Assembly: GCF_015475875.1 (NCBI RefSeq)
Contig: NZ_JADKYM010000001.1
Location: forward strand, 1 to 64,000
Direction of reading: 5' to 3'
Source of the DNA: Sphingopyxis solisilvae
Lineage (GTDB): Bacteria > Pseudomonadota > Alphaproteobacteria > Sphingomonadales > Sphingomonadaceae
Length of the DNA: 64,000 nucleotides
Part shown: positions 54,632-64,000 of the stretch, piece after piece
How the letters are laid out: every line of letters starts with the position of its first letter
Numbering within the stretch: position 1 is the stretch's first letter
The notes under the pieces: model-generated
Seen by the model: the letters and a program-made list of their open reading frames with translations, nothing else
The model's database searches: none
What the model was told of the DNA's origin: nothing
Made by a program: the position numbers and the translations under genes

Positions 54632-55681
54632 TCATTGGGGTGCGGCGACCGACTGTCGTTGGATGAAGGTCGATCGGAGCACCGCCGCCCCACCATCATC
54701 GACCTCCGCTGTGAAGGGAAGAAAGTCGGGTACGAGCGTCTTTGCCGCACGCACCCCCATTTCGCGGATCGGCCAGCGCACGGTGCTGAGCGCGGGCCAG
54801 ATATGTGTCGCTGTCGGGCTGTCGTCGAAGCCGATGATCGACAGCGCGCCGGGGACTTCGATGCGCTTGGCGTGCGCAACGCTCATCACCCCGGCGGCCA
54901 TCTCGTCGTTCGAACAGAAGATTGCGGTCGGCGGTTCGCCAAGCGACAGCAATGCCTCGCCCGCGTCGATCCCGGCGGCGTAGCGGTAATTGCCCGGCGC
55001 ATTATAAGCATCGGGAAGGTCGAGACCCGCCTCCGCCAGCGCTTCGCGGAAACCCTTTTCGCGCTCGGCGGCCGAGCGGAAACCCTGCGGGCCGCGCACA
55101 AAACCGATACGGCGATGGCCGAGCGCGATCAGCGCGCGCACCGCCTCCGCAACCACCTCGCGGTCGTTCGACGACACGCAATGCTTGGCATCGTCGAGCG
55201 GCGCCGATCCGACGCGCACATAGCGCACGCCCAGATCTTCGCAGAGCGCGGCGAGGGCGTCGTTTTCGGAGATCGGTGGCAGCAGCAGCGCGCCGATCGG
55301 GCGCTGCTTTTCCAGAAAGGTGCGGACGTCGTCGAGCATCCGCTCCGATCCGCGATCGACCGGGCGGACGAGCAGCGCGAGGTCGCTGTCCTTGATCGCG
55401 TCGAGCACGCCTTGCTGAAAATTCAGCACCGTCTGGGCATTGGGATTGTCGTGGAGCAGCGCGATCAGGAAGTTGCGGCGGAACGCCAGCGCGCGCGCCT
55501 GCGGGTTGGGGACGAACCCAAGCGTCTCGATCGCCTGCTCAACCGCCTTGCGCGTCTTTTCAGTCAGAAATTCGGAGCGGTTGATGACGCGGCTGACGGT
55601 CTTTTTCGACACCCCGGCGAGCGCGGCGACATCGTTGATCGTCGGCTGCTTGCCACTTGCGCCCTTTTTCTGTGCCGCCAT
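54632..55681 (-). CDS. LacI-family transcriptional regulator of the pectin/uronate locus
   Basis: 349 residues. The N-terminal HTH is PTINDVAALAGVSKKTVSRV with the hinge helix NPQARALAFRR. A periplasmic-binding-like sensor domain follows (about 70-340), with LLRP, SNDREVVAEAVRALIALGHRRIGFV, ICSNDEMAAGVM and IIGFDDSPTATHIWPALSTVR. The ATG at 55681 gives MAAQKKGASG; an open stretch before it is ignored. It faces the uronate operon and two palindromic ACCGGT operators lie in the shared gap, so auto-regulation plus repression of the operon is likely. The effector may be a keto-deoxy-uronate such as KDG (inference from neighbours). Confidence 0.92.
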   Translation of the reverse strand: MAAQKKGASGKQPTINDVAALAGVSKKTVSRVINRSEFLTEKTRKAVEQAIETLGFVPNPQARALAFRRNFLIALLHDNPNAQTVLNFQQGVLDAIKDSDLALLVRPVDRGSERMLDDVRTFLEKQRPIGALLLPPISENDALAALCEDLGVRYVRVGSAPLDDAKHCVSSNDREVVAEAVRALIALGHRRIGFVRGPQGFRSAAEREKGFREALAEAGLDLPDAYNAPGNYRYAAGIDAGEALLSLGEPPTAIFCSNDEMAAGVMSVAHAKRIEVPGALSIIGFDDSPTATHIWPALSTVRWPIREMGVRAAKTLVPDFLPFTAEVDDGGAAVLRSTFIQRQSVAAPQ

Positions 55682-55789
55682 ATGCGTCCAATCCTCTGCG
55701 GGTTCGGGCTGCTGTCCCGCCATTCGCCCGGTGTGATGGGCGCTTGGCGTGGCGAAATCAACCGCGACAAGCCGCCATCTGCCGAAAAC

Positions 55790-55803
55790 GGATACCGGTG
55801 TCT
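55790..55803. promoter_or_regulatory. LacI-type operator, site A (upstream of the LacI gene)
   Basis: GGATACCGGTGTCT matches the reverse complement of TGACACCGGTTACC at 11 of 14 positions, with the central ACCGGT palindrome intact. It lies 109 bp upstream of the LacI start codon and about 35 bp from site B. Confidence 0.65.
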
Positions 55804-55835: not shown

Positions 55836-55864
55836 TTGACACCGGTTACCAAAATCACTAGCGT
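55836..55864 (+). promoter_or_regulatory. Promoter with overlapping LacI-type operator, site B
   Basis: A perfect -35 TTGACA at 55836-55841, a 17-bp spacer and a weak -10 TAGCGT at 55859-55864 precede the isomerase gene (ATG at 55894). Operator TGACACCGGTTACC at 55837-55850 overlaps the -35 box, so bound repressor would block RNA polymerase. The same 14 bases recur exactly at 62842-62855. Confidence 0.7.
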
Positions 55865-55893: not shown

Positions 55894-56547
55894 ATGAAGA
55901 TCGCGCTGATCACCGAAAACAGCCAGGCCGCAAAGAACGGCATCATCCACGACGCGCTGACCACAGTCGCCGAGCCGCTGGGGCATGAGGTGTTCAATTA
56001 CGGCATGTATTCGGCCGACGACACGGCGTCGCTGACCTACATCATGAACGGCCTGCTCGCGGGCATCCTGCTCAACGCGAAGGCTGCCGATTTCGTCGTG
56101 ACCGGTTGCGGCACGGGTATGGGCTCGATGCTCGCCTGCAACGCGATGCCGGGGGTTTTCTGCGGTCTGGTGATCGACCCGACCGACGCCTTCCTGTTCG
56201 GCCAGATCAACGACGGCAACGCGATTTCGATGCCCTATGCCAAGGGTTTCGGCTGGGCGGCCGAGCTCAACCTGCAGGACGTCTATCGCAAGCTGTTCGA
56301 CGGCGAACGCGGGCTGGGCTACCCCAAGGAGCGCGCCGAAATCATGCGGACGAACCGCGGCATCCTGAAAGATCTCAAGGCCGCGTCGTGCCACGACATG
56401 CTGACCGTGCTGAAGACGGTCGATCAGGATCTGCTGCGCGCGGCGATCGCGGGCGAAAAGTTTGCGGAATATTTCTACGCCAATTCGCAGGACGACGAGA
56501 TCAGCGCCTATCTGAAGAGCGTGTCGGCGGAGCGGGCGCTCGCCTGA
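55894..56547 (+). CDS. RpiB/LacAB-family isomerase, probable 5-keto-4-deoxyuronate isomerase
   Basis: 217 residues. The first 150 match the RpiB/LacA/LacB sugar-phosphate isomerase fold (MKIALITENSQAAKNGII, ADFVVTGCGTGMGSMLACNAMPG, FGQINDGNAISMPYAKG); an extra C-terminal 65 residues follow. It sits where KduI would be expected, ahead of kduD and kdgK. RpiB-fold DhuI enzymes are known to isomerise unsaturated uronate-derived 4-deoxy-5-hexosulose uronate, so the same reaction is predicted here. The catalytic Cys (VTGCGTG) is present. Start: ATG at 55894 after AAAGGAA. Confidence 0.85.
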   Translation: MKIALITENSQAAKNGIIHDALTTVAEPLGHEVFNYGMYSADDTASLTYIMNGLLAGILLNAKAADFVVTGCGTGMGSMLACNAMPGVFCGLVIDPTDAFLFGQINDGNAISMPYAKGFGWAAELNLQDVYRKLFDGERGLGYPKERAEIMRTNRGILKDLKAASCHDMLTVLKTVDQDLLRAAIAGEKFAEYFYANSQDDEISAYLKSVSAERALA

Positions 56548-56548
56548 C

Positions 56549-57304
56549 ATGGCCGGGTTGTTCGATCTTTCGGGACAGGTCGCGCTGGTCACGGGTGCGA
56601 ACACGGGCATCGGGCAGGGGATTGCGCTCGCGCTCGCCGAAGCCGGAGCGGACATTGCTGCAGCGGGCCGGTCGGCAGCGGACGAGACGGTCGGCAAAGT
56701 GCGCGGGCTGGGCCGGAAGGGCGAGAATTTTTCCGCCGATCTGTCGAGCGTCGGCGCGGTACAGCCGCTCGTTGACGCGGTGCTCGCCGAGTATGGTCGC
56801 ATCGACATACTCGTCAACAATGCCGGGATCATCCGCCGCGCCGACGCGGTCGATTTCACCGAAGAGGATTGGGATGCCGTCATGGACACCAATCTTAAGA
56901 CCTTGTTCTTCCTCTGTCAGAGCGTGGGGCGTCACATGATCGCGCGCGGCAGTGGCAAGATCATCAACATCGCCTCGATGCTGACCTTTCAGGGCGGCAT
57001 CCGCGTGCCGAGCTATACCGCGTCGAAATCCGGCGTCGGGGGGCTGACCAAGCTGCTCGCCAATGAATGGGCGGCGAAGGGAATCAACGTCAACGCGATC
57101 GCGCCCGGCTATATTGCGACGAACAACACTGCGGCACTGCAAAGCGACGAGACCCGAAACCGCCAGATCATGGAGCGCATCCCGACAGGACGCTGGGGCG
57201 ATCCCGGCGACATCGGGGGTGCTGCGGTATTCCTGGCGTCACGTGCGTCGGATTATGTGCAGGGCCATATCCTTGCCGTCGACGGCGGCTGGCTGGCGCG
57301 GTAG
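56549..57304 (+). CDS. kduD: 2-dehydro-3-deoxy-D-gluconate 5-dehydrogenase (KduD, SDR family)
   Basis: Reduces 2,5-diketo-3-deoxygluconate to 2-keto-3-deoxygluconate (KDG) in uronate breakdown. It has 251 residues. The NAD motif is ALVTGANTGIGQGIALAL and NNAGIIRRADAVDF is the NNAG region. The catalytic Ser/Tyr/Lys are in IINIASMLTFQGG and VPSYTASKSGVGGL. AIAPGYIATNNT follows, then the C-terminal FLASRASDYVQGHILAVDGGW. One base separates it from the isomerase gene, so they are one transcript. Confidence 0.94.
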   Translation: MAGLFDLSGQVALVTGANTGIGQGIALALAEAGADIAAAGRSAADETVGKVRGLGRKGENFSADLSSVGAVQPLVDAVLAEYGRIDILVNNAGIIRRADAVDFTEEDWDAVMDTNLKTLFFLCQSVGRHMIARGSGKIINIASMLTFQGGIRVPSYTASKSGVGGLTKLLANEWAAKGINVNAIAPGYIATNNTAALQSDETRNRQIMERIPTGRWGDPGDIGGAAVFLASRASDYVQGHILAVDGGWLAR

Positions 57305-57319
57305 GCTTGGAACAATCAC

Positions 57320-57384
57320 CGTAGCCCTGAGCCTGTCGAAGGGCGCTTATCCGATAGGCGCCCGTCGACAGGCTCAGGGCTACG
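57320..57384. repeat. Intergenic inverted repeat, family E
   Basis: CGTAGCCCTGAGCCTGTCGA at the left and TCGACAGGCTCAGGGCTACG at the right form a perfect 20-bp stem. Only this copy is in the window. It lies between kduD and kdgK. Confidence 0.9.
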
Positions 57385-57423: not shown

Positions 57424-58437
57424 ATGGCGCAAGGCAAGCTGGTCTTTTTCGGCGAATTGCTGATCCGCCTGACCGCGCCGGGCAACGAGCTGCTGATGCA
57501 ATCGCCGTCGCTGGCGCTCCACGTTGGCGGCGCCGAGGCGAATGTCGCGATCGGGCTCGCGCATCTGGGCCATGACTGCGCGATGGTCAGCAAGATACCG
57601 GACAATGCACTGGGGCGCGGAGCCGTGGCGGCGGTGCGCGGTGCGGGCGTCGATTGCAGCGCCGTCACCAGCGGCCCAGGCCGCATGGGGCTGTATTTCC
57701 TCAGCGTCGGCGCGGGTCTGCGCTCGTCCGAGATTGTGTATGACCGTGCGGCGTCGAGTTTTGCGGCGACCGGCGCCGATGATTACGGCTGGGATGCGCT
57801 GCTTGGCGGTGCGCGCCTGCTCCACCTGTCGGGGATCACCCCCGCGCTCGGGCCGCGTTCGACCGAAGCGGCGCTCGCTGCGGCGCGCGCGGCGAAACGT
57901 CTGGGCGTGCCGGTCAGCTTCGATGGCAATTACCGCGCGATGCTGTGGGACGCATGGGACAGCGATCCACGCGCAGTGCTGTCCGAACTCATCGGCCTGA
58001 CTGACATTTTGTTCGGCAACCACCGCGACCTCTCGCTGGTGCTTGGACAGGAATTCAGCGGTGAAGGCGAACACCGGCGCCGTGAGGCGGCCGAGGCGGG
58101 TTTTGCCGCTTTCCCCCACCTCAAGCTGATCGCCTCGACCGCGCGGCACACGATCGCTGCCGATCACCACCGCATCGCGGCGCGGGTCGATCTGCGCGGC
58201 GGCGGGCATCAGACCGCCGAGATCGACGTCACCGGCATCGTCGACCGCATCGGCGCGGGCGACGCCTTTGCCGCCGGGGTGCTCCACGCGCACCTGGCGG
58301 GCGGCGATGCGCGGGCCATGGCCGAAAGCGGCCTCGCGCTAACCGCGCTCAAACATTCGCTGCCCGGCGATGCGAGCCGCTTTGGGCAGGCCGACATCGA
58401 CGCCTTCCACGGCGGCGGGCTCGATGTCAGGCGATAG
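57424..58437 (+). CDS. kdgK: 2-keto-3-deoxygluconate kinase (PfkB family)
   Basis: Phosphorylates KDG to KDPG. It has 337 residues. The N-terminal FFGELLIRLTAPGNELLMQS resembles KdgK rather than ribokinase. SLALHVGGAEANVAIGLAHLG is the first PfkB signature region, and DRIGAGDAFAAGVLHA (catalytic Asp in GAGD) the second. The gene stops inside the start of the carboxylesterase, overlapping by 14 bp. KDPG would be split by an aldolase not found in the window. Confidence 0.93.
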   Translation: MAQGKLVFFGELLIRLTAPGNELLMQSPSLALHVGGAEANVAIGLAHLGHDCAMVSKIPDNALGRGAVAAVRGAGVDCSAVTSGPGRMGLYFLSVGAGLRSSEIVYDRAASSFAATGADDYGWDALLGGARLLHLSGITPALGPRSTEAALAAARAAKRLGVPVSFDGNYRAMLWDAWDSDPRAVLSELIGLTDILFGNHRDLSLVLGQEFSGEGEHRRREAAEAGFAAFPHLKLIASTARHTIAADHHRIAARVDLRGGGHQTAEIDVTGIVDRIGAGDAFAAGVLHAHLAGGDARAMAESGLALTALKHSLPGDASRFGQADIDAFHGGGLDVRR

Positions 58438-59947
58438 GCTGACGCGGCGGTACCTGCTCGCCGCAGGCACGGCGTCGCTGCTGATGCCTCTGGTCGCCAA
58501 GGCCGAGATTGTTAAGCCGATTCATCATGTTGGCGGGGTCGAAGCCCGGGACGGATTCTATCGATTGGGCACGCGGCGAAGCCTTGGCGATGGTTCGGTC
58601 TGGGCCTTCACCGGCATCCGCTACGCTCGCGCCCGGCGCTTTGCGGCCCCGGTTGCGGTGACCAAAGCCGAGCAGTTGAAGGGCGACAGCTTCGGTCCAG
58701 TCTGTCCGCAGGTGGGCGACCGCTACCAGCCGCAATCAGAGGACTGCCTGTTCCTCAACGTCTGGACCCCCGACATCGAGGATCAGCGCAAGCGCCCGGT
58801 GATGGTCTATTTCCACGGCGGCGCCTATTCGACTGGCAGCGTCAGCGACCCGATCAACGATGGTGCCGTGCTCGCCGCGCGCGGTGATGTTGTGGTTGTC
58901 ACGGTCAATCACCGGTTGAACGCGCTGGGCTACCTCTATCTCGCGCGGCTCGATCCGCGCTTTCCAGACAGCGGCAACGCCGGGCAACTCGACCTGATTG
59001 CTGCGCTCCAATGGGTCCAGCGCAATATCGCGGCCTTCGGCGGCGATCCCGCCAATATCACCGTGTTCGGCCAGTCGGGCGGCGGCGCCAAGATCGCGAC
59101 GCTGATGGCGATGCCCGCGGCGAAGGGGCTGTTCCACAAGGCGATCACGATGAGCGGGCAGCAGGTAACCGCCTCGGGGCCGCTCAACGCGACCAGGCGC
59201 GCCGAGGCATTTCTTGCCAAGCTGGGCGACGGCACCGACCCCGCAACCGCGCCGGTCGAGCAACTGGTTGCGGCGCTGGCGGCGACCGATCCGGTGCTCG
59301 GCGGCGGGGTGTATATGGGACCGGTGCTCGACATTCAGCACCTGACGCGCCACCCCTTTTGGCCCGATGCCGCGCCGCAGTCGCTCGGCATCCCGATGCT
59401 GCTCGGCAACACGGTGCTGGAAACGCGCGCCTTTTATGCGCGCGACGGCAAGCAGCTTTCCGGGCTCACATTCGACAATCTCGCTGCCCGGATCGCCCCC
59501 GAAATGCGCATCGACGCGCATCCCGAATGGGTCGTCAGCGAATTTCGCGCGCGCTATCCGAAGGCTACGCCGATCGACCTGTTCCACCGCATCGTCACCG
59601 CGGCGCGCAGCTGGCGCGGGCAGATCGAGGAAGCCGAAGCGCGCGCCCGCGCGGGTGCACCGGCCTTCGTCTATCAGCTCGATTTCGAGGATGCGAAGCA
59701 TGCCGACGACATCGGGCTCAGCTTCGGTACCATCCCCGATCCAACCGCTGCGCAGCAGGCGATGAGCGACAGGATGATGGATGCGTTCGTGCGTTTCGCG
59801 CGCACCGGCAATCCGGGCTGGCCAGCCTATGATTTGAGACAGCGGCAGACGATGGTGTTCGATACCGACAGTCGGGTGTTGAACGATCCGCGCCAATGGG
59901 AGCGCGAGCTGTTCGCGCGGGTGCCGTATATTCAGCCCGGCACCTGA
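58424..59947 (+). CDS. Tat-exported carboxylesterase, type B family
   Basis: 507 residues. The N-terminus LTRRYLLAAGTASLLMPLVAKA has a twin-arginine Tat-type signal. The mature part is a carboxylesterase/cholinesterase-fold hydrolase. Its nucleophile Ser218 is in FGQSGGGAK, the oxyanion loop is MVYFHGGAYSTGS, and EDCLFLNVWTPDI is also conserved. The ATG at 58424 overlaps the end of kdgK by 14 bp. The partner esterase, cupin and pectate lyase genes nearby suggest it removes an ester substituent (such as methyl, acetyl or feruloyl) from pectin fragments; the specific ester is inference. Confidence 0.88.
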   Translation: MSGDRLTRRYLLAAGTASLLMPLVAKAEIVKPIHHVGGVEARDGFYRLGTRRSLGDGSVWAFTGIRYARARRFAAPVAVTKAEQLKGDSFGPVCPQVGDRYQPQSEDCLFLNVWTPDIEDQRKRPVMVYFHGGAYSTGSVSDPINDGAVLAARGDVVVVTVNHRLNALGYLYLARLDPRFPDSGNAGQLDLIAALQWVQRNIAAFGGDPANITVFGQSGGGAKIATLMAMPAAKGLFHKAITMSGQQVTASGPLNATRRAEAFLAKLGDGTDPATAPVEQLVAALAATDPVLGGGVYMGPVLDIQHLTRHPFWPDAAPQSLGIPMLLGNTVLETRAFYARDGKQLSGLTFDNLAARIAPEMRIDAHPEWVVSEFRARYPKATPIDLFHRIVTAARSWRGQIEEAEARARAGAPAFVYQLDFEDAKHADDIGLSFGTIPDPTAAQQAMSDRMMDAFVRFARTGNPGWPAYDLRQRQTMVFDTDSRVLNDPRQWERELFARVPYIQPGT

Positions 59948-60038: not shown

Positions 60039-61010
60039 TCACAGGATCTTCTGCGACCCCAACCAGTTCCACAGCAGCTCGGGCCAGATCGCGACCGGTA
60101 AGCCAGCCGTCCTCATCAACCCGAAACCATGCTCGCCGCGCTCGAAAAAATGCGCCTCGCACGGCGCCCCGACTGCGCGCGTGGCTTCGCGCAACCGGAC
60201 ACTGTTTTCGACCTTCACCACGCTGTCGTCCTCGGCGTGGAGCAGCCAGAGCGTCGGCTGATCGGCGCGGACATTCAGTTCGGGAGAATAGAGCCTTTCG
60301 CGCGCCGCGTCGGGGTTGGCGCCGATCAGTTTCTCGCGGCTCACCGCATGTGCGATCGCCGGGTCCATCGATACCACGGGATAAATGGCGGCAAGTGCGT
60401 CGGGGCGCGCTGATAGCTGGTCGGTGCTGTCGACCGGCGCACAGGCCTTCGCATCGAATCGCGTGAGCAGGCTCGTCGCGACCTGCCCGCCCGCGGAAAA
60501 ACCGCCGAAGGTGACGCGCGCCTGGTCGATTTGATCGACCGCCGCGCGGCTGCGCACCAGCCGCACTGCGCGCTGCGCATCGGCGAGCGGGACATCGGAT
60601 CCGTTTTCCCAGCCATCTCCGGGCAGGCGGTAGAAGAGGACGTATACGGTGATGCCGCGATCCTTCAGCCAGCGCGCGAGTTCATAGCCCTCCTTGTCGA
60701 TCACGACATAGCGATAGCCGCCACCGGGCGCGAGGATCACTGCGGCCCCAGTGGGCTTGGCCGGGCGGAAGATGTCGAGTCGCGGGCGGGTGATGCCTTG
60801 CAGCATCCGGTCGCTGGCATCCGGATCGTCGCTGCGCTGGACGACCTGTTCGACCAGACCTGCGGGCAGTCGGAGGTGACGGCTTGGCCAAAGCGGAACG
60901 CTGGCATCGGGGGTTACGCCCGCGGGCCGGGTCCAGGCGGCTTGTGCGGCGGCGGTAGCGAAGGGTACGGCGAGTCCCGCCGCCAGCAGCGCGCGGCGGT
61001 CGATCGTCAT
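60039..61010 (-). CDS. Exported alpha/beta hydrolase (acetylesterase-like)
   Basis: 323 residues. The N-terminus MTIDRRALLAAGLAVPFATA has a twin-arginine Tat-type signal. The oxyanion loop is VILAPGGGYRYV, the nucleophile Ser is in FGGFSAGGQVA, and the catalytic Asp/His are near LHAEDDSVV and RGEHGFGL. The pattern fits the xylan/pectin acetylesterase-like BD-FAE group. It is last in the minus-strand cluster with the cupin and pectate lyase genes (overlap with the cupin gene of four bases), so deacetylation of pectin is a reasonable guess. Confidence 0.86.
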   Translation of the reverse strand: MTIDRRALLAAGLAVPFATAAAQAAWTRPAGVTPDASVPLWPSRHLRLPAGLVEQVVQRSDDPDASDRMLQGITRPRLDIFRPAKPTGAAVILAPGGGYRYVVIDKEGYELARWLKDRGITVYVLFYRLPGDGWENGSDVPLADAQRAVRLVRSRAAVDQIDQARVTFGGFSAGGQVATSLLTRFDAKACAPVDSTDQLSARPDALAAIYPVVSMDPAIAHAVSREKLIGANPDAARERLYSPELNVRADQPTLWLLHAEDDSVVKVENSVRLREATRAVGAPCEAHFFERGEHGFGLMRTAGLPVAIWPELLWNWLGSQKIL

Positions 61011-61405
61011 GGCGCATGCGGGTTGTTCGGGTACGCGATGATCAGCACCAGCGGCTCGCTGCCGGTCTGGCGGATGCCGACATTGGCGCCCTTGTAGAGC
61101 CATGCCGCTGTGCCAGCTTTCAGCTCGTTCTGGATGCCATCCGAATGGACGACGCCGGTACCCGACAGCACATAATAGATTTCATCATGGTCGATCGGGT
61201 GGATGCCGATCGCGGCGCCGATGTGCAGCGCACGCTTGCGGAATTCGAAGCTGCGCGGTGCTGGGATAGCGTCGCTGATCCGGTACGCCGTGGACGTACC
61301 GATTGCGCCATGCGGCGGCGGTTCTTCGCGCACCGTGGCGGCTTCGTCGATCACGATCATTGCGGGTGCCTCGGCCCCGGCGAGCAGCAGCGCGGCGAGC
61401 CACAT
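61007..61405 (-). CDS. Exported cupin-domain protein
   Basis: 132 residues. The signal peptide is MWLAALLLAGAEAPA. A single cupin domain has the metal-ligand motif GIHPIDHDEIYYVLSGTGVV and the second motif region around GTAAWLYKGANVGIRQTG. The ATG at 61405 lies two bases after the pectate lyase stop codon; codons upstream in the same frame belong to the lyase. Cupins of this size next to lyases can be sugar isomerases or binding proteins; no reaction is assigned. Confidence 0.82.
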   Translation of the reverse strand: MWLAALLLAGAEAPAMIVIDEAATVREEPPPHGAIGTSTAYRISDAIPAPRSFEFRKRALHIGAAIGIHPIDHDEIYYVLSGTGVVHSDGIQNELKAGTAAWLYKGANVGIRQTGSEPLVLIIAYPNNPHAP

Positions 61406-61407
61406 CG

Positions 61408-62784
61408 TCACTGGCCGGTCCGCGAAGCGCGGTCGCGTGGCGACAGGATTTCCTGTGGCGTCGGTGCGGTCTGGCCGGGATAGAGGCCCGAGTTCGGCTC
61501 CATGGTCGCTAGATCCCATGCGCTCTCGACAAATGGCGCGCGGACGGCCTCCTTGACCTTGGGATAGGCGCTTACCTCGCGCTCGTCGTCGATCACCTCG
61601 CCGCGCCCTTCGGCGATGAAGTATAGGACGCGGATTTCCTCCGGGTCACGAGCCCAAGGGCGCGCGCCGGCGGTGGCAAGGACCGAGGTTTCGACGTCCC
61701 GAACTGGCAGGATCCGGTAAGCGCCGGTCGGTGCAAGCGGCGCCTTCGCGCGGATCAGTTGCGCGCGTGTTTCGCCATAGCGGCCGAATTCGGGAAGCGG
61801 CTTGCCGTGGCGGTCGACCGCCAGATTGTCCTTGCCATAATAAGCAAGGTCGCCGTCGCCGCCGAGCATCAGAAAGGGCAGGCCGTCATCCGTATCATTG
61901 CCGCCGCGCAGGACGTTGCCGATCGCGGTGATTTCGCCGGTTACATAAGGTTGCCCGACCCATTCAAGATTCATCAAATTGTAATGCACCGCGCGGTGCT
62001 GCGGGTTGTAGATCAGGTTGTTTATCATCAACACCTGCGCGCCCCCCTTTACCAGCGGATTGCGCTCGACATTGTGCGCCCACACATTGCGGTAAAAGAC
62101 GATGCCGGTCGCATTGTCGTGGATCAAGGATCCCTTGCTGTGCTCGCCTTTGGGATGACTGGCATCGGCAAGTCCTTCCGCGGCAAGATTGTTGGAAAAG
62201 CTGATATTGCGGCTTGTGCCGCCGCGCCAATCATCCACCGTTTTGCCGGTAAACCGGGGGCCAGACGCCGACATATTCTCGTCGATCGCCCACAAGAAGG
62301 TGCAATGGTCAATGATGACATTGTGTGCCGCGACGGTCGACAGCGCATCGGCTTCCCAGCCGCTGCGCTTCGCCTGGCCATCGGCGCCGGTGTAAACGCG
62401 CAGGTGGCGGATGATGACATCGTGGGTCCGCACGTCGATGCCGGTACGGATTAGCGTGATCCCCGGTCCCGGGGCGGTCTGGCCTGCTATGGTAAGATAG
62501 GGGTGCTTGATGTCGATTGTCTGGCGGCCAAGGTCGATCACTCCGCCGACCTCGAACACGATGATGCGCGGTCCCGGCGTCTCGATTGCAGCCTTTAGGG
62601 ATCCCGGTCCGTCAGGCGCCAGTGTCGTGACGCGCAGGATCTGGCCGCCGCGTCCACCGACGGTGGTGGCGGCCGGTCCGACCGCTCCAGGGAATGCAAG
62701 CGTTGTCGCGTGTGCCGCCGCAACCAGCCCCGCAGGCTGCACGATCGCCAGAAAAAATGCGGTTATCCAAGTTCTTACAGCCAT
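61408..62784 (-). CDS. Exported pectate lyase-like protein (right-handed beta-helix)
   Basis: 458 residues. The signal peptide ends near VAAAHA-TTLAFPGA. The parallel beta-helix has many short repeats (VIDLGRQTIDI, PYLTIAGQTAPGPGITLI, VIIRHLRVYTG, NVIIDHCTFLWAIDENMS, NISFSNNLAAEG). The DHCTFLWAIDENMS region and a positively charged GGTSRNISF fit the PL1/PL9-like pectate lyases that leave 4,5-unsaturated galacturonate ends. Such products feed the isomerase-KduD-KdgK route encoded on the plus strand. It is first in its operon, divergent from the TonB-dependent receptor. Confidence 0.87.
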   Translation of the reverse strand: MAVRTWITAFFLAIVQPAGLVAAAHATTLAFPGAVGPAATTVGGRGGQILRVTTLAPDGPGSLKAAIETPGPRIIVFEVGGVIDLGRQTIDIKHPYLTIAGQTAPGPGITLIRTGIDVRTHDVIIRHLRVYTGADGQAKRSGWEADALSTVAAHNVIIDHCTFLWAIDENMSASGPRFTGKTVDDWRGGTSRNISFSNNLAAEGLADASHPKGEHSKGSLIHDNATGIVFYRNVWAHNVERNPLVKGGAQVLMINNLIYNPQHRAVHYNLMNLEWVGQPYVTGEITAIGNVLRGGNDTDDGLPFLMLGGDGDLAYYGKDNLAVDRHGKPLPEFGRYGETRAQLIRAKAPLAPTGAYRILPVRDVETSVLATAGARPWARDPEEIRVLYFIAEGRGEVIDDEREVSAYPKVKEAVRAPFVESAWDLATMEPNSGLYPGQTAPTPQEILSPRDRASRTGQ

Positions 62785-62841: not shown

Positions 62842-62855
62842 TGACACCGGTTACC
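62842..62855. promoter_or_regulatory. LacI-type operator, site C
   Basis: TGACACCGGTTACC, identical to site B at 55837-55850. It overlaps the predicted +1 of the promoter at 62810-62839. Confidence 0.7.
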
Positions 62856-62984: not shown

Positions 62985-62998
62985 AGTAACCGGTGTCA
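62985..62998. promoter_or_regulatory. LacI-type operator, site D
   Basis: AGTAACCGGTGTCA matches the reverse complement of site C at 13 of 14 positions. It lies 130 bp downstream of site C and 46 bp before the receptor start codon. It could serve as a second site for DNA looping or for the pectate lyase promoter. Confidence 0.65.
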
Positions 62999-63043
62999 TT
63001 TCTTGTGCAATCAGGAATTTCAGCCGATCAAGGGAGGATGATA

Positions 63044-64000
63044 ATGGCAATTCAAGCACTGCGGGTTCTCACGACATTGGCGTGCGGCGCCTCGCTGTCG
63101 GCGTTGGCTGCGTCGCCCGCATGGGCGCAGGATGCGGCGCCCGTTGATAGCGAAGCGGATGCGGCCGAGGGAGAAATCGTCGTCACCGGCTTTCGTGCCT
63201 CGCTCGATGCGGCGTTGAATGCCAAGCGTGCCGACGGCGGAATTGTCGATGTCATCAAGGCCGAGGATATCGGCAAGTTTCCTGACACCAATCTTGCCGA
63301 GTCGCTGCAGCGCGTCCCCGGCGTCGTGATCGATCGCGACGCAGGTGAAGGGCGTTCGATCACCGTGCGTGGTCTCGGTCAAGATTTTACCCGTATCCGC
63401 ATCAACGGGATCGAGGCTCTGGCGACCACGGGCGGGACCGACAGTTCGGGCGGCGCCAACCGGTCGCGTGGTTTTGATTTCAATGTGTTTGCCTCGGAAC
63501 TGTTCAATTCGATCACCGTGCGAAAAAGCGCATCGGCCAATGTCGATGAAGGCTCGCTCGGCGCGACGGTCGATCTTCAGGCGGCACGACCTTTCGACTT
63601 CAACGGCTTTCGCCTCGCGGGTTCGGTCAAGGCGCGATACAACGACCTCAACGAAAAGGTCGATCCGCGCGCAGCGCTGCTGGTCTCCAATACCTTTGCC
63701 GATGGACGCTTCGGTGTGCTTGTTTCGGCCGCCTATTCGAAGCGGCGCCTGTACGAGGAGGGTTTCAGCACTGTACGTTGGGACAATGGTCCTTCGTCCC
63801 AAGGCTGGTGCGCGCCGATCGGGCTGACGTCGCAGGGTACCAACGCGACGCAGGCAACCTGCGGGCCCGCTGCGCAAGGTGTGGCTCGCCTGCCCGACAC
63901 GCCCGCCAACCGGGCGGCCTTTCTGGCGGCCAGCGACCCGGCCAATTTCCATCCGCGCCTGCCGCGCTACGGGCGTCTGACACACGACCAGGACCGTCTG
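63044..64000 (+). CDS. TonB-dependent receptor (partial, runs off the window end)
   Basis: An outer-membrane active-transport receptor, 319 codons visible with no stop. The signal peptide (about 1-27) is followed by AAEGEIVVTGFRASLDAALN, the conserved start of sphingomonad TBDR plugs. TonB-plug residues follow: DVIKAEDIGKFPDTNLAESL, QRVPGVVIDRD and TVRGLGQDFTRIRINGIEAL. Early barrel strands include ARPFDFNGFRLAGS, KARYNDLNEKVD and AYSKRRLYEEGFS. AGGGAGG six bases before the ATG at 63044 is the ribosome-binding site; a second ATG six bases upstream is less well placed. It probably imports pectin oligosaccharides for this locus. Confidence 0.9.
   Translation, partial: MAIQALRVLTTLACGASLSALAASPAWAQDAAPVDSEADAAEGEIVVTGFRASLDAALNAKRADGGIVDVIKAEDIGKFPDTNLAESLQRVPGVVIDRDAGEGRSITVRGLGQDFTRIRINGIEALATTGGTDSSGGANRSRGFDFNVFASELFNSITVRKSASANVDEGSLGATVDLQAARPFDFNGFRLAGSVKARYNDLNEKVDPRAALLVSNTFADGRFGVLVSAAYSKRRLYEEGFSTVRWDNGPSSQGWCAPIGLTSQGTNATQATCGPAAQGVARLPDTPANRAAFLAASDPANFHPRLPRYGRLTHDQDRL

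Follow-up and report, generated by a model that had tools for sequence, protein, structure and literature searches.

DhuI and KduI are isomerases that both convert DHU to DK-II, and in vitro either of them has been combined with either reductase, DhuD or KduD, on DHU, according to the sections of the published account available to us (PMC6045597). The same sections say that unsaturated glucuronate and unsaturated galacturonate are an identical compound, so KduD can act on the product of DhuI. In Streptococcus agalactiae, dhuD-dhuI belongs to a glycosaminoglycan cluster, whereas in the locus described here dhuI-kduD lies among pectin genes. The available part of Nishimura et al. 2025 (PMC12838403), from which the streptococcal arrangement is taken, gives kduI-kduD (type A) as the commonest cluster and describes type G dhuI-kduD hybrids in Sphingomonadaceae and Erythrobacteraceae, 13 strains among 3,550, whose DhuI correlates with a clade 2. 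The dhuI-kduD hybrid of Sphingomonadaceae is thus already known since that 2025 publication, and because this gene pair has been reported, nothing is overturned by our locus, which has the same pair in the same order and from the same families. A further relative, PDB entry 3C5Y from Novosphingobium aromaticivorans, bears the name 'Ribose/galactose isomerase' and appears in the accessible part of PMC3212906, in a list of RpiB structures, as a JCSG entry that lacks a primary citation.

Family of the protein encoded upstream of kduD

The window, meaning the whole stretch of 64,000 nucleotides of Sphingopyxis solisilvae DNA that was analysed, carries at 55894..56547 on the forward strand an open reading frame for 217 residues. 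It is free of internal stops, and its GC content of 0.87 at codon position 3 and 0.41 at position 2 is a coding pattern. The last base of its stop codon is 56547 and the ATG of kduD starts at 56549, leaving one base between the two genes. The kduD gene (56549..57304, forward strand) encodes the DK-II reductase, or 2-dehydro-3-deoxy-D-gluconate 5-dehydrogenase, as indicated by its membership in TIGR01832 (405.6 bits, cut-off 338.85).

We predict that the upstream gene, dhuI, encodes an RpiB-fold DHU isomerase. Its product belongs to NF006753 (PRK09273) over residues 1-211 with 329.4 bits (cut-off 137), a full-length family match; the model itself is titled 'hypothetical protein' and is linked to DhuI through the protein's similarity to gbs1892 of S. 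agalactiae. The N-terminal domain matches PF02502 with 65.7 bits (cut-off 24.7), confirming the RpiB fold, and residues 164-210 correspond to PF12408 (DUF3666; 81.8 bits, cut-off 25), which gives the domain pair of the DhuI family. Another trait of this family, being encoded beside a DK-II reductase (DhuD or KduD), is seen in the adjacent KduD. Judged by profiles and neighbourhood, the protein is a clear member of the DhuI family, and PF04962, the family of KduI, is absent among the families that it matches. The ORF, the PF02502 match and the TIGR01832 match of its neighbour bear out the description in the earlier note of a 217-residue protein of RpiB/LacAB fold one base before kduD.

The four closest PDB sequences are 3c5y, 4u8e/4u8f, 2ppw and 3ono, and all of them align from residue 1 to 210-212, the PF12408 part included. 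We take 4u8e/4u8f, which represent gbs1892 of S. agalactiae, to be the published DhuI structures; they show the same domain pair and 58.1% identity over 210 residues. The C-terminal extension beyond the RpiB core pointed out in the earlier note is real, while its description as unusual does not hold, since it is the family's own PF12408 and common to the four closest PDB sequences. Cys72 of the GCGTG motif is invariant in an alignment of eight rows and, by analogy with RpiB, is likely the catalytic residue.

The pectin locus and its operator sites

Divergent from dhuI lies the gene of a LacI-family regulator (54632..55723, reverse strand; PF00356 and PF13377 above cut-off), the presumed repressor of the pectin regulon. 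Between the two genes, a putative operator matches TGACACCGGTTACC exactly (55837..55850, forward strand) and an operator-like palindrome GATACCGGTGTC is found at 55791..55802 as well as in congeners (L065, L067, L071). Downstream of kduD follows an inverted repeat with 18-base arms and one mismatch (57325..57379), whose two arms are the sole matches in the window of the repeat search (0.01 expected) and which may represent either a terminator or a repeat element. The next gene, kdgK (57424..58437, forward strand), encodes a PfkB sugar kinase (PF00294 above cut-off) that is likely a KDG kinase, with the NCBIfam KDG-kinase models matching below their cut-offs. It is followed by a carboxylesterase-family protein (58370..59947, forward strand; PF00135) that is part of the conserved locus. 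Encoded on the reverse strand are a PaeX-like pectin acetylesterase (60039..61103; NF041902 294.9 bits, below the cut-off of 550), a small cupin protein of uncertain start codon (61007..61519; PF07883 29.1 bits, cut-off 27.2), possibly a KdgF-like ring opener, and a PelZ-like pectate lyase (61408..62784; NF041900 336.7 bits, below the cut-off of 840). A second exact TGACACCGGTTACC copy (62842..62855, forward strand), again a putative operator, lies between this lyase and a TonB-dependent receptor, and a third putative operator with one mismatch, TGACACCGGTTACT, is found at 62985..62998 on the reverse strand. The receptor (62993..64000, forward strand; TIGR01782 692.7 bits, cut-off 310) has an uncertain start codon and extends beyond the window as far as contig position 65977. 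Past the window end the series reads, in the order listed, TonB-dependent receptor, second PelZ-like lyase, hydratase-like protein and MFS transporter.

For comparison, we took regions of at most 20 kb surrounding the 43 other dhuI genes and the kduI candidates and mapped the window genes on them by tblastn. We defined a locus as pectin-type if a stretch of 20 kb or shorter contained a tblastn match to PelZ, the carboxylesterase or the cupin, which yielded 24 dhuI and 32 kduI loci among the family genomes, 56 altogether. LacI and kinase homologues were each present in all 24 dhuI and in 30 of the 32 kduI loci. A lyase homologue was found in 24/24 dhuI and 19/32 kduI loci and a carboxylesterase homologue, whose presence is one way to qualify, in 51 of the 56; counts for PelZ, carboxylesterase and cupin are partly circular because these three define the class.

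Genome-wide, TGACACCGGTTACC-type sites with at most one mismatch occur three times (55837, 62842 and 62985), all in the pectin locus. A wider operator regulon was considered and rejected: with up to two mismatches the genome contains 15 sites, compared with 15 for the reversed control motif, which leaves the three sites of 0-1 mismatch as the meaningful ones. Within 300 bp upstream of the isomerase gene, the operator was found with at most one mismatch in 24/24 dhuI loci and exactly in 18/32 kduI loci of pectin type; extending the search to 2.5 kb gave 24/24 (at most one mismatch) and 29/32 (exact), respectively, while the reversed control never came closer than three mismatches in these 56 loci. 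Taking all dhuI-kduD loci, 39 of 41 have an operator of 0-1 mismatch in the 2.5 kb upstream. Ten solitary kduI loci had no site with fewer than three mismatches over the same distance. Control of the locus probably lies with the LacI regulator and the TGACACCGGTTACC operator.

Alternation of dhuI and kduI before kduD

A PF04962 (KduI/IolB) profile search of the Sphingopyxis solisilvae assembly (50 contigs, 99.97% complete) gave 0 matches, and PF12408 gave one, which is dhuI. A kduI gene with the same operator elsewhere in the genome, which would have refuted the proposal in the earlier note, was thus not encountered by this search. Surveying 298 genomes of the family, we found PF12408 in 44, PF04962 (which includes IolB) in 57 and both in 7. 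That dhuI and kduI strictly exclude each other across whole genomes is not supported, given these seven genomes; the overlap is not strong mutual exclusion, and exclusion instead sits in the slot before kduD.

The ten strongest PF04962 matches (G075, G245, G081, G067, G083, G186, G141, G182, G274 and G284) were set aside as IolB; nine of them pass the NCBIfam IolB cut-off, which G284 does not reach although it also matches the IolB model. The regions compared do not include two 29-bit matches in G043, and a 34-bit match in G267 (L155) showed no KduI by tblastn. KduI identity was confirmed with NCBIfam in 5/5 loci checked and assigned by tblastn similarity in the remaining loci. When genes no more than 400 bp apart are counted as neighbours, dhuI lies before kduD in 41 of the 298 genomes and kduI in 39, and both arrangements occur in a single genome, G057. 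The dhuI-kduD gap is at most 133 bp in 40 genomes and 325 bp in G057. The check proposed in the earlier note was whether homologues co-occur with kduD in the absence of kduI. Of the 44 family genomes that have dhuI, 41 show this co-occurrence; among these 41 dhuI-kduD genomes, 37 are without kduI and four, G057 included, have some kduI.

The exchange can be followed within the window's own genus, where four of seven sampled genomes have dhuI only, one (G293) has kduI only and two have neither. In G293, the gene preceding kduD is kduI (NF002091, 377.1 bits), the gene series is the same as in the window from kduD on, and from the kduD start codon the DNA is again similar to that of the window (86%). 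An operator lies upstream of kduI in G293 as well; no LacI homologue was found in its 20-kb stretch, and the evidence for a shared regulator does not extend to this genome. G057 has two kduD-kdgK copies (L100 and L109) with 97.5% DNA identity over 1778 bp. One follows dhuI and the other kduI, which we read as a recent duplication or exchange. On a KduD tree of 80 proteins the isomerase type changes 10 times, with 5 changes forced by starred branches, although the exact number is unsure because this quick tree leaves 31 of its 77 inner branches open and includes two flagged long rows. Shuffling the labels gave about 27 changes on average, and 0 of 500 shuffles came as low as 10. The two unrelated enzymes thus appear to have been exchanged several times in the same operon slot. 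That relatives hold kduI at this very position of the locus supports the proposal in the earlier note of an RpiB-fold enzyme in KduI's place.

Among the matches listed for named genomes, the nearest dhuI loci belong to Sphingopyxis, with DhuI 93-97% identical, and the dhuI-kduD pair also occurs in Hyphomonas, Maricaulis and other alphaproteobacterial records. The best 80 of at least 581 dhuI relatives, which are a sample of close relatives, comprise 50 dhuI-kduD loci, 18 with kduD nearby in another arrangement and 12 without a kduD-like gene of more than 45% identity nearby. Seven of the 18 have kduI in the same locus (L162, L163, L165, L166, L177, L200 and L204, from Asticcacaulis and Brevundimonas of the Caulobacterales), so dhuI and kduI are not always alternatives.

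Two further groups were observed. Three genomes of one genus (L073, L078, L081) carry a solitary dhuI with neither kduD nor pectin genes nearby, together with a solitary kduI; the operator-like sites upstream have 1, 1 and 2 mismatches, and the reversed control reaches 2 in one of them. A divergent KduI group (L113, L114, L115, L117, L154) shows no kduD nearby and no operator. Beside it, L117 encodes a sulfatase and L113 a DUF5060 protein; the clusters to which these two belong occur in five loci each, none of which are dhuI or ordinary kduI loci.

Proposed pathway role and comparison with known systems

The sequences show the family of the protein, the order of the genes, the lack of kduI, the alternation in one slot and the common operator motif. 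On our best reading, the gene is dhuI and its product would isomerise pectin-derived DHU in place of KduI, to which we assign a probability of about 0.9. The reaction, its substrate, regulation and the order of steps are those we infer from this context. DhuI would convert DHU to DK-II, replacing the unrelated cupin-fold KduI of related pectin loci, and KduD would then reduce DK-II to KDG. The kinase would phosphorylate KDG, and a presumed Entner-Doudoroff aldolase would split the product. No activity test of a DhuI from this clade was found in the open-licence literature.

An ordinary sugar-phosphate isomerase (RpiB or LacAB) placed beside kduD by chance would share the fold and the PF02502 match above cut-off, but the dedicated models score well below their thresholds (NF004051 31.8 bits against 135, TIGR00689 21.6 against 88.3 and TIGR01119 28.6 against 312.55) and PDB entries named RpiB align over about 50-110 residues only, with E values of 2.5e-5 or weaker. 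We rejected this identity on the failed models, and chance adjacency is further at odds with the recurrence of dhuI before kduD and of the operator upstream of the pair, which makes this explanation extremely improbable. Only slightly less remote is the idea that DhuI is redundant or serves a minor form of DHU while a third, unrecognised isomerase performs the main step. It is consistent with the seven loci with kduI among the best 80 of at least 581 and with the 13 of 41 type H strains for which the available part of PMC12838403 reports kduI-kduD-dhuI in tandem. However, no kduI was found in 37 of 41 dhuI-kduD genomes, and KduD needs an isomerase before it.

More weight, while still improbable, can be given to a different uronate step, such as taking over the UxaC conversion of galacturonate to tagaturonate, or to action on an alginate-type 4-deoxy-uronate. 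The window's genome is without UxaC (PF02614), a gene of about 481 residues is present in 11 kduI and 0 dhuI loci with its representative in L139 coinciding with a UxaC match, seven dhuI-kduD loci include a member of the PF05426 (alginate lyase) family, and some Caulobacterales carry dhuI and kduI together. Gene neighbourhoods suggested that DhuI generally stands in for UxaC, but this was rejected on genome-wide counts: UxaC is found in 20/24 dhuI and 24/32 kduI pectin-type genomes, so dhuI is not a general UxaC substitute. The exchange of kduI for dhuI in the same slot and with the same operator likewise favours the KduI reaction. Three congeners of the window's genome that have dhuI (G042, G122, G224) do contain UxaC. 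The PF05426 genes (L059, L074, L075, L077, L087, L097 and L098; the L059 gene was assigned by Pfam, the other six through blastp against it) suggest another uronate polymer as a source of DHU, and one kduI locus, L150, also has such a gene.

The unsaturated digalacturonide hydrolase named as supplier of the substrate in the earlier note has no counterpart in profile searches of the window's genome, which gave 0 matches for GH88/GH105 (PF07470), PL22 (PF14583) and GH28 (PF00295). The GH28 search covered this genome; for the other two families, 48 of the 56 pectin-type genomes, all 24 dhuI ones included, showed neither above cut-off. The unsaturated monomer would be made either by an exo-acting lyase or by an unrecognised enzyme. 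One candidate for such an enzyme is the hydratase-like protein just past the window (L017:5310-6086, contig position 67310-68086), which is preceded by an operator-like GACACCGGTGTC and whose gene is found in 50 of the 56 pectin-type loci (20/24 dhuI, 30/32 kduI). It is a distant relative of NahK (profile E 3.7e-15) and of 2-keto-4-pentenoate hydratase (1.1e-14), and glutamates E101, E103 and E133 are kept in the 18 sequences aligned out of 69 usable ones, presumably the metal site of the 2-keto-4-pentenoate hydratase fold. A broader proposal, unlikely although not negligible, is that most such sphingomonad pectin loci run without known releasers of unsaturated monogalacturonate, that the hydratase-like protein gives DHU by adding water to the 4,5 double bond, either in unsaturated galacturonides or in the free unsaturated monomer, and that the isomerase slot is an exchangeable module of two unrelated enzymes.

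With respect to known systems, the available part of the type G account (PMC12838403) has no mention that we found of a pectin locus, an operator or same-slot alternation with kduI, and no description of these three features was found in the open-licence literature; they are what is added here. DhuI, mainly treated as a glycosaminoglycan enzyme in the parts of the literature found, is thereby tied to a plant-pectin locus. At 86.2% identity over 210 residues, 3C5Y is practically the structure of the window protein, so its present name is probably wrong, and a likely function can be offered for a protein group named ribose/galactose isomerase, one member of which has a crystal structure. This should be of use for annotation and pathway models. 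KduI (5-dehydro-4-deoxy-D-glucuronate isomerase) resembles DhuI in its slot before kduD, its operator motif and its inferred reaction, and differs in family, as PF04962 has no match in the DhuI protein. The swap of these unrelated enzymes in one slot, with operator and reductase kept, is a tidy natural case of non-homologous replacement among close relatives.
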